The position numbers and the translations under genes were made by a program. A stretch of 21,749 bases of DNA from a virus. The stretch lies in IMG/VR virus record IMGVR_UViG_3300046009_007752, positions 1-21,749 of that record. One strand, given 5' to 3'. Each line of letters opens with the position of its first letter. The first letter of the stretch is position 1. Below the pieces are notes generated by a model. It saw nothing but the letters and a program-made list of their open reading frames with translations. It made no database searches and was not told the origin of the DNA. Below are positions 12,251 to 15,577 of this stretch, one piece after another.

Positions 12251-12266
12251 CATATATTTATACGAT

Positions 12267-14741
12267 ATGGAACTTAACGTAGTAAATACAATAGTAGCGA
12301 TCTATCCAGGACGTTTCCAACCATTTTCAAGGCACCACGCAGCTGCGTTTAAGTGGCTACAATCAAAGTTTGGAGATAAAAATACGTACATAGCTACGTC
12401 TAATAAAGTTGAATTACCAAAAAGTCCCCTGTCTTTTGAAGATAAAAAACAAATAATATCTAAGTACGGATACGGTGCAAACTTAGTTATGGTAAAAAAT
12501 CCGTATAAAGCGGAAGAAGTAACTTCCAAATACGATCCAAAGACTACCGCCGTAGTTTTCATGGTGGGAGAAAAGGACATGAAAGAAGATCCTAGGTTTT
12601 CAATGAAACAAAAAAAAGACGGTACAGAATCTTACTTTAAACCGTATAAAGGAAACGAAAACGATTTAAAGGGATACGTAGATCATGGATATTTAGTTGT
12701 TGCTCCAAACGTATCTTTGAACGTACCCGGTTACGGAGAGATGAGCGGCACTTCTATAAGAACCGCGCTGTCTTCTACAAAAAATCCTGAAAAATACAAA
12801 GAACTTTTTAAAGGAATATTTGGTTGGTACGATCCAAAAATAGCTGAAATGCTTAAAAATAAATTTACCCAAAAATCGCTAAAAGAGTTTTTAATATTTG
12901 AAAGAATCGTAAAGAAATTATTGACCGAGGGAGGGGCTGCCGATCATATAAATGATAAGATAGAGTGTAAGATTTGTGGAACTATGGTAAAAAGTATAGC
13001 ACCACTTCACTTAAAATTTAAACATCCAAATATAAGTTTAAAAGAATATAAAGAATTATATCCCCATGCTCAAACTATTAGTGAACAACTAAAAAAGAGT
13101 ATGTCAGAAAATAATGCATTTAAAAGAGACGATGTAAAAGGAAAAATAAAAAATAAAAAATTAGAGAAGTATGGAGATGAAAATTACAATAATTCTAAAG
13201 GTTGGAGTAATCACCATCTATTAAAAGAAATATGTAATCGACCAGAAAATAAAAAAAAATTATCTGAAGCAATAAAAAGAAGCTATAATAATAAGCCAGA
13301 ACTTAAGAAACTAAGAAGTGAAACTATAGGAATTATAGGAAAAAATAATTTTGATAAGATAAATCAAAAAAAATTCGAAACAGGAGAGTGGATAAGTCGA
13401 TTCAATAAAGAAGATTTTTTTGGATATAAAGAAAGAGTTAGACACATAACTGAAGAAAATTATAAAAAGTACTTCTATAAAATACCCGAAGCCAAAAAAA
13501 GATCTAGACAATGGCATTTAGATCACAAATATTCCATACTAGAAGGATATAAGAACGATATCAATGAAGAAGTGATTGGTCATTGGTGTAATCTTGAAAT
13601 GTTGCATCATTCAATAAATGAATCAAAAGGGTATAAATCATCTATATCTCTTAATGAATTATTTGAATTAATTCATAGTGTAGAAACAGATAGCAGAATT
13701 CTTCTTCTTTGCGGTGGGGCTGCCGGCCACATGGCCCATCCATTTGATATACCCAGTGTAAAAACTGGTAAAGATTTGATATCAGTGTTCCAAAAAACAG
13801 CTAACTTCTTACAGAACAATAAAGTTCCAGTAAAGATAGATGGGGTTAACGCATCGATTAGATTAGCTGACGTTGATGGTAAAAAGCAATTCGTAATGGA
13901 TAGGGGATCAAATAAACCCCTCGATGTAAAGGGTATAACTAAATCCGATCTATTGGGTAGATTTGGAGAAGGCCACGGAATGATAAAAGTAGGTGGAAAA
14001 GTGTTAGACATATTCAACGAAGCTCTGCCACAAATAAAGCCGGAGTTACAAAAATTGGGAATGTTGAACGATCCAAACGTAATGTTTAACATAGAATACG
14101 TAGAGGGAAAGAGCAACGTGCAAGAGTACGAAAGCAATTTTTTAGCTATACACAATTTACTAAAATTAGAGAGAGTTAGTCCGACTAAAAGAGTATCAAA
14201 AGAAACTAATTACGATAAAAAAGTGCTTCAAGATCTAATAAAAAAAGTAGATAAAGTAGCAAAAAAATACGAATTTGAAGTTGTGGGAGAAATTCCTGCA
14301 ACTTTAGATAAGAAGCCCAATTTCGCTTCCAGTCTATCTAAGAATTATACAGTTAATTATACAAAAGATAAAAAAGAAACAAAATCCCTTAAGTCTTGGT
14401 TGGATCAAGCGAATAACACTAAAGGTCAAACTATTAAATTAAAGGGAGGAAAAAAAGTTGATGCGTTAAGTAAGCAAGTTTTTACATGGATACTAAACGG
14501 AAAACCCGTAGACGAATTAATAGAAGACGAAAAAGACGCTAAATTAGCAGTAGATTCGTTCGTAATATACAACGCTACGATGGTATTAGGAGACGATGTA
14601 TTATCTTCAATGAACTCTCCTTTAGGTTCTGTAAAAGATCAAGAGGGAATAGTGATTAGAGACAAAGAAGTTTACGATAAACCTTACAAAATAACAGGAT
14701 CTTTTATAATTAAGGGATTGGAATCTTCTTTTGGTAAGTAA
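12267..14741 (+). CDS. NMNAT-like / ligase-like bifunctional protein with in-frame HNH insertion
   Basis: An 824-residue protein in one frame. Residues 1 to about 200 are an adenylyl/cytidylyltransferase fold: GRFQPFSRHH (15-24; first His of the usual H-x-x-H replaced by Ser, second kept) and SGTSIR (160-165), close to the S-(S/T)-T-x-I-R motif of NMN adenylyltransferases. Residues about 226-482 are a foreign HNH endonuclease (see the mobile element). From residue 483 (GGAAGHMAHPFD) runs a covalent-nucleotidyltransferase-like domain: K523-I-D-G526 (motif I), FNIEYVEG (about 608-614, motif III), EGIVIRD (793-799, motif IV) and a lysine motif V (SFIIKG). From memory, this C-terminal domain occurs in marine T4-like phages, perhaps as DUF6267; not verified. 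Possible roles are NAD turnover, end repair or RNA ligation. The reaction is not provable here. Confidence 0.8.
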   Translation: MELNVVNTIVAIYPGRFQPFSRHHAAAFKWLQSKFGDKNTYIATSNKVELPKSPLSFEDKKQIISKYGYGANLVMVKNPYKAEEVTSKYDPKTTAVVFMVGEKDMKEDPRFSMKQKKDGTESYFKPYKGNENDLKGYVDHGYLVVAPNVSLNVPGYGEMSGTSIRTALSSTKNPEKYKELFKGIFGWYDPKIAEMLKNKFTQKSLKEFLIFERIVKKLLTEGGAADHINDKIECKICGTMVKSIAPLHLKFKHPNISLKEYKELYPHAQTISEQLKKSMSENNAFKRDDVKGKIKNKKLEKYGDENYNNSKGWSNHHLLKEICNRPENKKKLSEAIKRSYNNKPELKKLRSETIGIIGKNNFDKINQKKFETGEWISRFNKEDFFGYKERVRHITEENYKKYFYKIPEAKKRSRQWHLDHKYSILEGYKNDINEEVIGHWCNLEMLHHSINESKGYKSSISLNELFELIHSVETDSRILLLCGGAAGHMAHPFDIPSVKTGKDLISVFQKTANFLQNNKVPVKIDGVNASIRLADVDGKKQFVMDRGSNKPLDVKGITKSDLLGRFGEGHGMIKVGGKVLDIFNEALPQIKPELQKLGMLNDPNVMFNIEYVEGKSNVQEYESNFLAIHNLLKLERVSPTKRVSKETNYDKKVLQDLIKKVDKVAKKYEFEVVGEIPATLDKKPNFASSLSKNYTVNYTKDKKETKSLKSWLDQANNTKGQTIKLKGGKKVDALSKQVFTWILNGKPVDELIEDEKDAKLAVDSFVIYNATMVLGDDVLSSMNSPLGSVKDQEGIVIRDKEVYDKPYKITGSFIIKGLESSFGK
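12930..12947 (+). repeat. Left flank copy of insertion repeat
   Basis: Reads GGAGGGGCTGCCGATCAT and encodes GGAADH. It matches the right copy at 14 of 18 bases, with the central GGGGCTGCCG (12933-12942) identical. It follows directly on the host-gene segment encoding KKLLTE. In the right copy the same motif leads into the conserved GHMAHPFD of the host protein, so this left copy looks like the interrupted original or a duplicate made on insertion. Confidence 0.75.
12930..13712 (+). mobile_element. In-frame HNH homing-endonuclease insertion (783 bp)
   Basis: This unit is bounded by two copies of a short repeat 783 bp apart and encodes about 261 residues in the frame of the host gene. It contains a C2H2-type zinc finger (C234-x2-C237, H248, H253 in the composite protein) of the kind common in phage HNH enzymes. 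A lysine-rich DNA-binding stretch follows. The HNH core is at about 417-454 (HLDHKYSILEGYKN, then NLEMLHHSIN, then K454). Tyrosine codons are 10 TAT and 2 TAC here, against 6 TAT and 16 TAC in the host gene outside it. No intein termini (Cys/Ser first, His-Asn before Cys/Ser/Thr) are seen, and almost all of the unit is HNH protein, leaving no room for a group I ribozyme. The exact ends are uncertain within the repeat. Confidence 0.8.
13713..13730 (+). repeat. Right flank copy of insertion repeat
   Basis: Reads GGTGGGGCTGCCGGCCAC and encodes GGAAGH, in the same frame as the left copy. The residues before it (RILLLC) are a weak echo of the residues before the left copy (KKLLTE), which suggests that a slightly longer stretch was duplicated and has since diverged. 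Confidence 0.75.
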
Positions 14742-15577
14742 TGGAAAATAAAAAAATACAAACAATATATGAATTTGCTTTGTACTGTAAAAAAGTACTA
14801 AAGATTCAAAAAATGCCCAAAATAACGCTAATAGGCGATAAAAGTTGGGTGTTAAATAGATTTAGTTTTGGAGAATACGATAACAAGGCAAAATCTATAG
14901 TTGTATATATAAAAAATAGAAATTTAGCAGACGTATTACGCACTGTATCTCATGAATTGATACACCACAAACAAAACGAAAAAGGATTGCTCACTCCCGA
15001 TTCAGGTAAAACTGGATCTAATGAAGAAAATACAGCAAATAGTTACGCTGGAGTAATAATGAGGAATTATGGAAAAAAGAATCCGCACATATACGAGTCT
15101 TTATCAAAGTCAAAATATAAAATATATTGCGACATGGACGGAGTGCTTGTGGATTTTGAAAAGGGATACAAAGATTTAACAGGAGTAGATTTAAAAGGGA
15201 AACACGTCAGCAATTCTCAAGAATTTTGGGATCCGATAACTAAAGCGGGAGAAAAATATTGGTCCGAATTAGAATGGACAGCCGACGGGAAAGCCTTATG
15301 GAAATACATAAGCAAGTACAATCCAGAAATATTGTCTGCTCCTTCCAAAGATATATCTTCAAAAACAGGAAAACATATATGGGTAGATCGAGAGTTGGGT
15401 AACGTAAATTTAATACTAAAATCTGCGTATCAAAAACAACAATACGCAAAAGAAAATTCTATATTGATAGACGATAGAGCGGATAATATACAACGTTGGA
15501 AAGATGCTGGTGGAATTGGAATACATCACACGTCTACAGAAAATACAATTAAGGAACTAAAAAAATTAGGACTGTAA
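14741..15577 (+). CDS. Zincin-like metallopeptidase fused to HAD phosphatase
   Basis: A 278-residue protein with two domains. Residues 1 to about 110 contain an H71-E-x-x-H75 zinc motif (VSHELIHHKQ) and a downstream EEN (95-97) that could give the third ligand. This looks like a small phage zincin. Residues about 125-278 are a HAD-family hydrolase: motif I D131-M-D133-G-V-L-V-D (nucleophile D131, acid D133) and motif IV ILIDDRADNI (D244, D245), with WKDAGGIGI after it. This is similar to 5'(3')-deoxyribonucleotidases of phages. The junction is PHIYESLSKSK (residues 115-125). The gene begins on the stop of the previous gene (TAATG). The HAD part probably works in nucleotide turnover. The peptidase substrate is unknown. 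Confidence 0.8.
   Translation: MENKKIQTIYEFALYCKKVLKIQKMPKITLIGDKSWVLNRFSFGEYDNKAKSIVVYIKNRNLADVLRTVSHELIHHKQNEKGLLTPDSGKTGSNEENTANSYAGVIMRNYGKKNPHIYESLSKSKYKIYCDMDGVLVDFEKGYKDLTGVDLKGKHVSNSQEFWDPITKAGEKYWSELEWTADGKALWKYISKYNPEILSAPSKDISSKTGKHIWVDRELGNVNLILKSAYQKQQYAKENSILIDDRADNIQRWKDAGGIGIHHTSTENTIKELKKLGL

Follow-up and report, generated by a model that had tools for sequence, protein, structure and literature searches.

An HNH endonuclease unit carried in frame at the joint of two enzyme domains in phage genes: a candidate homing element that is neither intron nor intein

Introduction

Homing endonucleases inside coding regions are usually attributed to a self-splicing partner. A homing endonuclease gene is recognised by its presence or absence at one site in related genes and by copies that resemble one another more than their hosts do, and members of the HNH superfamily by catalytic His/Asp-His and Asn residues within a beta-beta-alpha-metal motif. 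For an intein a Hint domain, an N-terminal Cys, Ser, Thr or Ala, a C-terminal Asn or Gln and a nucleophile at position +1 are expected. Ribosomal bypass as in T4 gene 60 is characterized by matched take-off and landing codons together with a stop codon after the take-off site.

The nearest published case that we found is the ShiLan domain of mycobacteriophage DNA methylases, in which the host frame yields no nuclease and the HNH protein is encoded in a different frame (PMC11855218). A lone LAGLIDADG insert in phage methylases has no detectable splicing element and is reported to be vertically inherited (PMC11855218). Aeh1 mobE in nrdA and T4 mobA in the topoisomerase gene are inserts that split their host into separate genes (PMC2988022).

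Here we describe a gene from a 21.7-kb virus record (the complete stretch of 21,749 nucleotides that was analysed is referred to as the window) in which an HNH unit lies between two enzyme domains. With a probability slightly above three in four we regard this unit as a homing HNH endonuclease, neither intron nor intein, that inserts in frame into a flexible joint between domains and remains there as a translated domain.

Results

The host ORF codes for 824 amino acids from ATG to TAA with zero internal stops in the ORF listing and translation (Table 1). The continuous frame of 824 codons with a zinc-finger/HNH unit of 261 codons between NMNAT-like and ligase-like domains, as described in the original prediction, was therefore exact in its counts. 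Likeness to NMNAT is found in the first 221 residues, with structural matches to NMNAT, NadM and NadD. The last 342 residues carry a KxDG motif and further invariant residues expected of a nucleotidyltransferase/ligase (alignment A2), and T4 RNA ligase 1 was the top structural match in Foldseek, although a weak one (E 4e-3). A scan of the whole ORF gave no Pfam or PHROGs match for this ligase-like family, PDB sequence searches with the ligase profile and with the HNH profile gave chance-level matches only, and the ligase domain of one relative (L222) retrieved three distant ligase homologues from the phages collection. Despite its absence from Pfam and PHROGs matches the family is frequent among environmental phage contigs. 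Among cultured phages, Microcystis phage Mel-JY01 encodes a homologous protein with both domains. The next gene (14741–15577) is another multi-enzyme fusion, with an N-terminal HELIHH metallopeptidase-like part fused to a 5'-3' deoxyribonucleotidase.

Table 1. Positions in the window of the host ORF, its domains and the features of the HNH element
Feature	Position	Strand	Evidence
Host ORF, NMNAT / HNH unit / ligase-like domain in one frame	12267–14741	+	ORF listing; 824 codons
NMNAT-like domain, ends LLTE (E codon GAG, 12927–12929)	12267–12929	+	Weak PF01467 match (E=5e-4); phrog_395; NadM/NadD structural matches; homologues
Stop-free HNH element of 261 codons, in frame at both ends	12930–13712	+	Alignments; missing in uninterrupted homologues
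Putative 5' target copy, codes GGAADH	12930–12949	+	Direct repeat D5; empty homologues have GGAAGHM there
Zinc finger CxxC(x10)HxxxxH	12966–13025	+	Alignment conservation; ROS_MUCR match in relatives L141, L161 and L132
HNH core, invariant Y..R..LDHK..N..N..K	13425–13628	+	Invariant columns of alignment A1; phrog_5104 match
LLLC tail of element; TGC (13710–13712) replaces E codon of empty alleles	13701–13712	+	19/20 elements LLxC; 97/100 empty sites E
Putative 3' target copy, codes GGAAGH(M), start of ligase domain	13713–13732	+	Direct repeat
Ligase-like nucleotidyltransferase domain, KIDG motif at 13833–13844	13713–14738	+	Invariant columns of alignment A2; weak Foldseek match to T4 Rnl1; model pLDDT 88

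In the AlphaFold model of the 824-aa protein, segments 203–228 and 449–487 adjoin the element junctions and have a pLDDT mostly below 50, the flanking NMNAT and ligase domains reach about 90, and the HNH half is poorly predicted. Both junctions of the unit are thereby predicted to fall in or beside low-confidence linkers between well-predicted domains, in agreement with the earlier proposal of an HNH element kept at a linker as an additional domain, which we consider the most likely state of the unit.

The HNH superfamily residues LDHK..N..N are invariant across nine elements, and homology to phrog_5104 was detected together with a weak Pfam HNH match; by its catalytic His/Asp-His and Asn residues the 261-codon unit can be assigned to the HNH endonuclease superfamily. 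Codon usage differs between the unit and the rest of the ORF: our recount of tyrosine codons reproduced the original figures exactly (TAT/TAC 10/2 inside versus 6/16 outside, Fisher P=0.003), the bias is stronger for asparagine (AAT/AAC 22/1 versus 15/18, P=1e-4), and GC3 is 0.165 inside and 0.298 outside. The unit is furthermore bounded by an imperfect 20-nt direct repeat, 80% identical, which the original prediction had missed. On the left side the window reads LLTE-GGAADHI, followed by the HNH unit and then by RILLLC-GGAAGHM. Alignment with uninterrupted homologues, the check proposed for finding the junction, placed the joint at LLTE/GGAAGHM (the slash marks the joint), where these homologues run gap-free as ...LLTE/GGAAGHMAHPFD... 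The 20-nt repeat is therefore best read as a duplicated, slightly decayed target.

The insert in the window had been treated as a unique event but proved to be one copy of a recurrent family at the same site. At least 20 distinct HNH copies lie in frame directly ahead of the ligase motif, E/GGAxGHMxHPF, which opens the ligase domain. The phage ORFs that carry them are diverse and range from NMNAT-ligase fusions up to ORFs of 1000–1700 residues; with the exception of cultured-phage records all loci are environmental contigs. Empty sites read (L/I)xE/GG, and 19 of 20 distinct elements end in LLxC/GG, the exception being L318, which ends in TIQE and thus has E at the 3' junction. A scan unselected for the residue at position -1 gave E in 97, M in 3 and C in 0 of 100 distinct GGA[AG]GHMxHP sites among the matches listed, so that C at this position can be taken as a mark of insertion. 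This frequency rests on the unselected scan, because a scan for TGY at -1 (28 stretches) selects for C by design. In the alignments the element follows the E codon of the joint in frame, either directly or at a distance of a few codons, and its 3' end LLxC replaces the (L/I)xE that otherwise precedes GGA.

Some loci deviate from this arrangement. Two HNH copies among the matches listed (L305, L319) precede the NMNAT domain rather than the ligase. L305 (2438–5884) contains a single 1149-aa ORF in which NMNAT and the ligase are each preceded by an HNH element; the additional element may indicate either a second target site or transposition to the NMNAT site. In a split form (L141, from the same record as L313) the HNH takes over the host start and then stops, and a new start with the leader MIKISKLLVSLFENKKLLTC lies ahead of the ligase; in L174 this leader is kept without HNH. 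In L311 the HNH ORF seemingly starts at its own ATG and is fused downstream only. The splits in L141 and L311, together with the E in place of C at the 3' junction of L318, are points against our reading of the element.

A profile scan with nine inserts found 169 relatives, and among the best 80 of them the more distant ones are free-standing HNH ORFs. Fused copies cluster in a tree (2 changes versus 18.5 for shuffled labels) that is built on few columns and whose deep forks are not settled. The genomes collection yielded one distant free-standing relative, and the phages collection no element at the ligase-motif joint. Another insert was noticed in the near-identical relatives L167 (805–1539) and L083: about 735 extra bases coding for a GIY-YIG-like protein lie just before the NMNAT start and are missing at 12262–12266 of the window. 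A second mobile nuclease therefore appears to be polymorphic beside the same gene.

Within one phage group, empty alleles (L130, L129, L125, L131) occur together with a full element of 696 nt (L132), a core-deleted element of 333 nt (L135) and a stub of 63 nt (L166). All insert lengths are multiples of 3, and the 3' edge always reads ...TTATTATTGTGC/GGAGG. The tails of the 8 stubs among the matches listed match full elements at 26–42 of 42 nt, compared with 16–24 of 42 for empty sites. All eight are in frame with the upstream ORF, seven still share an ORF with the NMNAT motif, and one (L155) has kept the finger start and the tail with the middle deleted. L165, which also has a C junction, was dropped as a stub, its tail matching full elements at 21/42, no better than empty sites. 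The series points clearly to decay of the element by in-frame deletion, down to stubs whose tails still resemble full elements. Since this decay stays in frame down to 21 codons, splicing that depends on the insert is hard to reconcile with it, and translation through the joint appears to matter.

The sequence at the joint suggests why an insert would be tolerated there. A tentative version of our reading, which refines and does not contradict it, holds that (L/I)xE/GG is a T4-type prohead-protease site in head-packaged enzymes and that the element exploits an already-cut joint. NMNAT would then be released at LLTE/GG, and the HNH, with C/GG as its new junction, would remain attached to the ligase. 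T4 gp21 and its relatives cleave after Glu within a short motif (PMC9026906), and in the present set E is invariant after unrelated leaders, with L or I at P3 in 119 of 132 sites. Leaders can be as short as 14–40 residues, e.g. MKTFKQYYSTILNE. Peptidase_S77 was found in 13 of the 14 records searched, the lone record without it being 4.9 kb long, and the ligase model shows disorder in the residues right before GGA, which are LLLC in the window. On the other hand, leaders are weakly enriched within one 197-kb contig (1.39-fold, P=0.003), where a control motif is nearly as enriched, and stubs and elements, both lacking E at the 3' joint, have kept the ligase nonetheless. Across many loci (L179–L295) the invariant E precedes GGAxGHMxHP, usually in the form (L/I)xE, and does so also in stand-alone ligases whose leaders are this short; invariant E and short leaders possibly represent a prohead-protease site and a capsid-targeting leader. 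We consider it rather doubtful that all of these elements hold together, i.e. that a read-through homing domain targets the motif DNA at a prohead-protease joint of head-packaged enzymes with no need for self-splicing, that its in-frame scars immunise the allele and that it may be packaged fused to the ligase.

Between L308 and L314 dS is 0.03 for the HNH versus 0.45 for the ligase (42 ligase codons compared), and between L310 and L314 it is 0.34 versus 2.33 (140 codons), DNA identity in the latter pair jumping from 52–67% to 97% at the left edge of the element. In L301 and L303 the HNH and ligase parts are equally diverged. As far as can be judged from these comparisons, the element has the distribution of a homing gene, being present or absent at one site, with copies closer than their hosts in some pairs. 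Of the recent foreign origin that had been deduced from codon usage, the foreign character stands; the family, however, is old, its copies being 36–45% identical to that of the window, and recent transfers (L308/L314) are found next to vertical-looking pairs (L301/L303). Among closer pairs dN/dS of the HNH is approximately 0.1–0.3, well below 1, and the protein has therefore been under selection in its present frame.

Purifying selection on the HNH would also be expected if it were a domesticated, functional component of the enzyme that, for instance, makes nicks for repair together with the ligase, instead of a selfish passenger, and the equal divergence of L301 and L303 is as expected of vertical inheritance. 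We regard this as improbable, given that the element is rare and patchy with no C junction among the 100 sampled sites listed, that it has recently moved horizontally and that its core has been lost repeatedly.

The lack of intein and intron signs noted originally was borne out. Rfam, the covariance-model check that had been proposed, returned nothing of note for a group I/II ribozyme core in the insert, which is almost wholly HNH protein, at either gathering or relaxed thresholds, and the domain scan of the window ORF and its relatives revealed no Hint domain. With regard to intein splice residues only the +1 Cys fits: the elements begin variously with G, Y, S, F or D, and ahead of C they have L, V, T, M or Q. 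Identity as an intein or a group I/II intron was rejected on these grounds. The RNA fold z-score of the unit (-3.4; other elements -0.3 to -3.0) is not specific, because some neighbouring coding stretches reach -3.3 and -4.7. Intein-like sequences were observed in the ligase active site (EK/TDGQ) of related ORFs, uninterrupted in L320 and divided into two halves by a nuclease-like ORF in L314 and L316. As they are easily recognised by eye they serve as an internal control for intein detection.

A cryptic intron or non-canonical intein would require removal of the unit by a splicing mechanism not yet recognised, with the junction C acting as +1 nucleophile or the repeats guiding RNA splicing. 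The conserved C and the flanking direct repeats would suit it, ShiLan inserts also change the +1 residue, to T/S (PMC11855218), and models can miss phage introns. We nevertheless think it highly improbable: a terminal Asn/Gln and an N-terminal Cys/Ser pattern are lacking, as are Rfam and Hint matches, the unit RNA folds no more stably than some ordinary coding DNA nearby, genuine inteins stand out readily in related ORFs, the joint of L318 carries E, and the stubs of about 21 codons, which contain nothing more that could be spliced, have kept the frame. A bypass of the T4 gene 60 type, with ribosomes hopping from the first repeat to the second and skipping the unit, can practically be dismissed, since the matched repeats GGAGGGGCTGCC and GGTGGGGCTGCC, 783 nt apart, are present but the take-off site has no in-frame stop codon, the unit codes in frame for a complete protein under selection, the 5' repeat is missing in most other elements and in-frame stubs persist.

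Discussion

We infer that the HNH unit is an active endonuclease that uses its zinc finger and HNH core to recognise the DNA of the conserved GGAxGHMxHPF motif at the start of the ligase-like domain. Judging from homology and distribution, the HNH would cut or nick the empty allele and the element would then be copied in by recombination. The element is in frame, ends in LLxC and contains no stop codon, and the gene therefore still reads through to the ligase domain. NMNAT, HNH and ligase would be made as one polypeptide with the HNH in a tolerant flexible linker, and we infer that the unit is retained in the mature protein. The changed junction codon may render occupied or stub alleles immune to recutting.

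In place of a self-splicing partner, an HNH family found across many phages would thus offer an alternative: entry in frame at a domain joint, end codons that rebuild the joint, and tolerance. With full, deleted, stub and empty alleles available, the life cycle of the element can be tested directly, and the scars provide a sequence marker of earlier invasions. The family also serves as a warning that what appears in a phage annotation as an in-frame fusion can be a passenger and not a functional domain. If read-through at a prohead-protease joint proved true, it would add a further lifestyle of homing endonucleases beside introns, inteins and free-standing genes. In a literature search that covered few subscription journals we found no paper on an in-frame read-through HNH family with stubs.

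Known systems share individual features with the window unit. In T4-like phages such as VR26 a free-standing HNH gene lies by gp19; its homology concerns the HNH half (in VR26, 55% of an element at 38.5% identity), but it is a separate, unfused ORF that ends 3 nt before gp19. The LAGLIDADG insert resembles the unit as an endonuclease insert for which no splicing element was detected; it differs in nuclease family and in its reported vertical inheritance, and no stubs are described there (PMC11855218). Like mobE and mobA, the unit is an HNH homing endonuclease in a coding region without a self-splicing partner and with host function presumably kept; in contrast to them the host ORF is whole in the window and in most relatives, L141 representing the split form of the family and L311 a partial one (PMC2988022). 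The ShiLan insert is likewise open in the host frame, lies between conserved residues, is patchy, has no intein or intron signal, is presumed to be retained in the host protein and also has a changed residue after the insert (PMC11855218). Unlike ShiLan, whose HNH is read in another frame, the HNH of the window is itself the product in the host frame, decay stubs occur, and the two sets of host genes are not related (PMC11855218).
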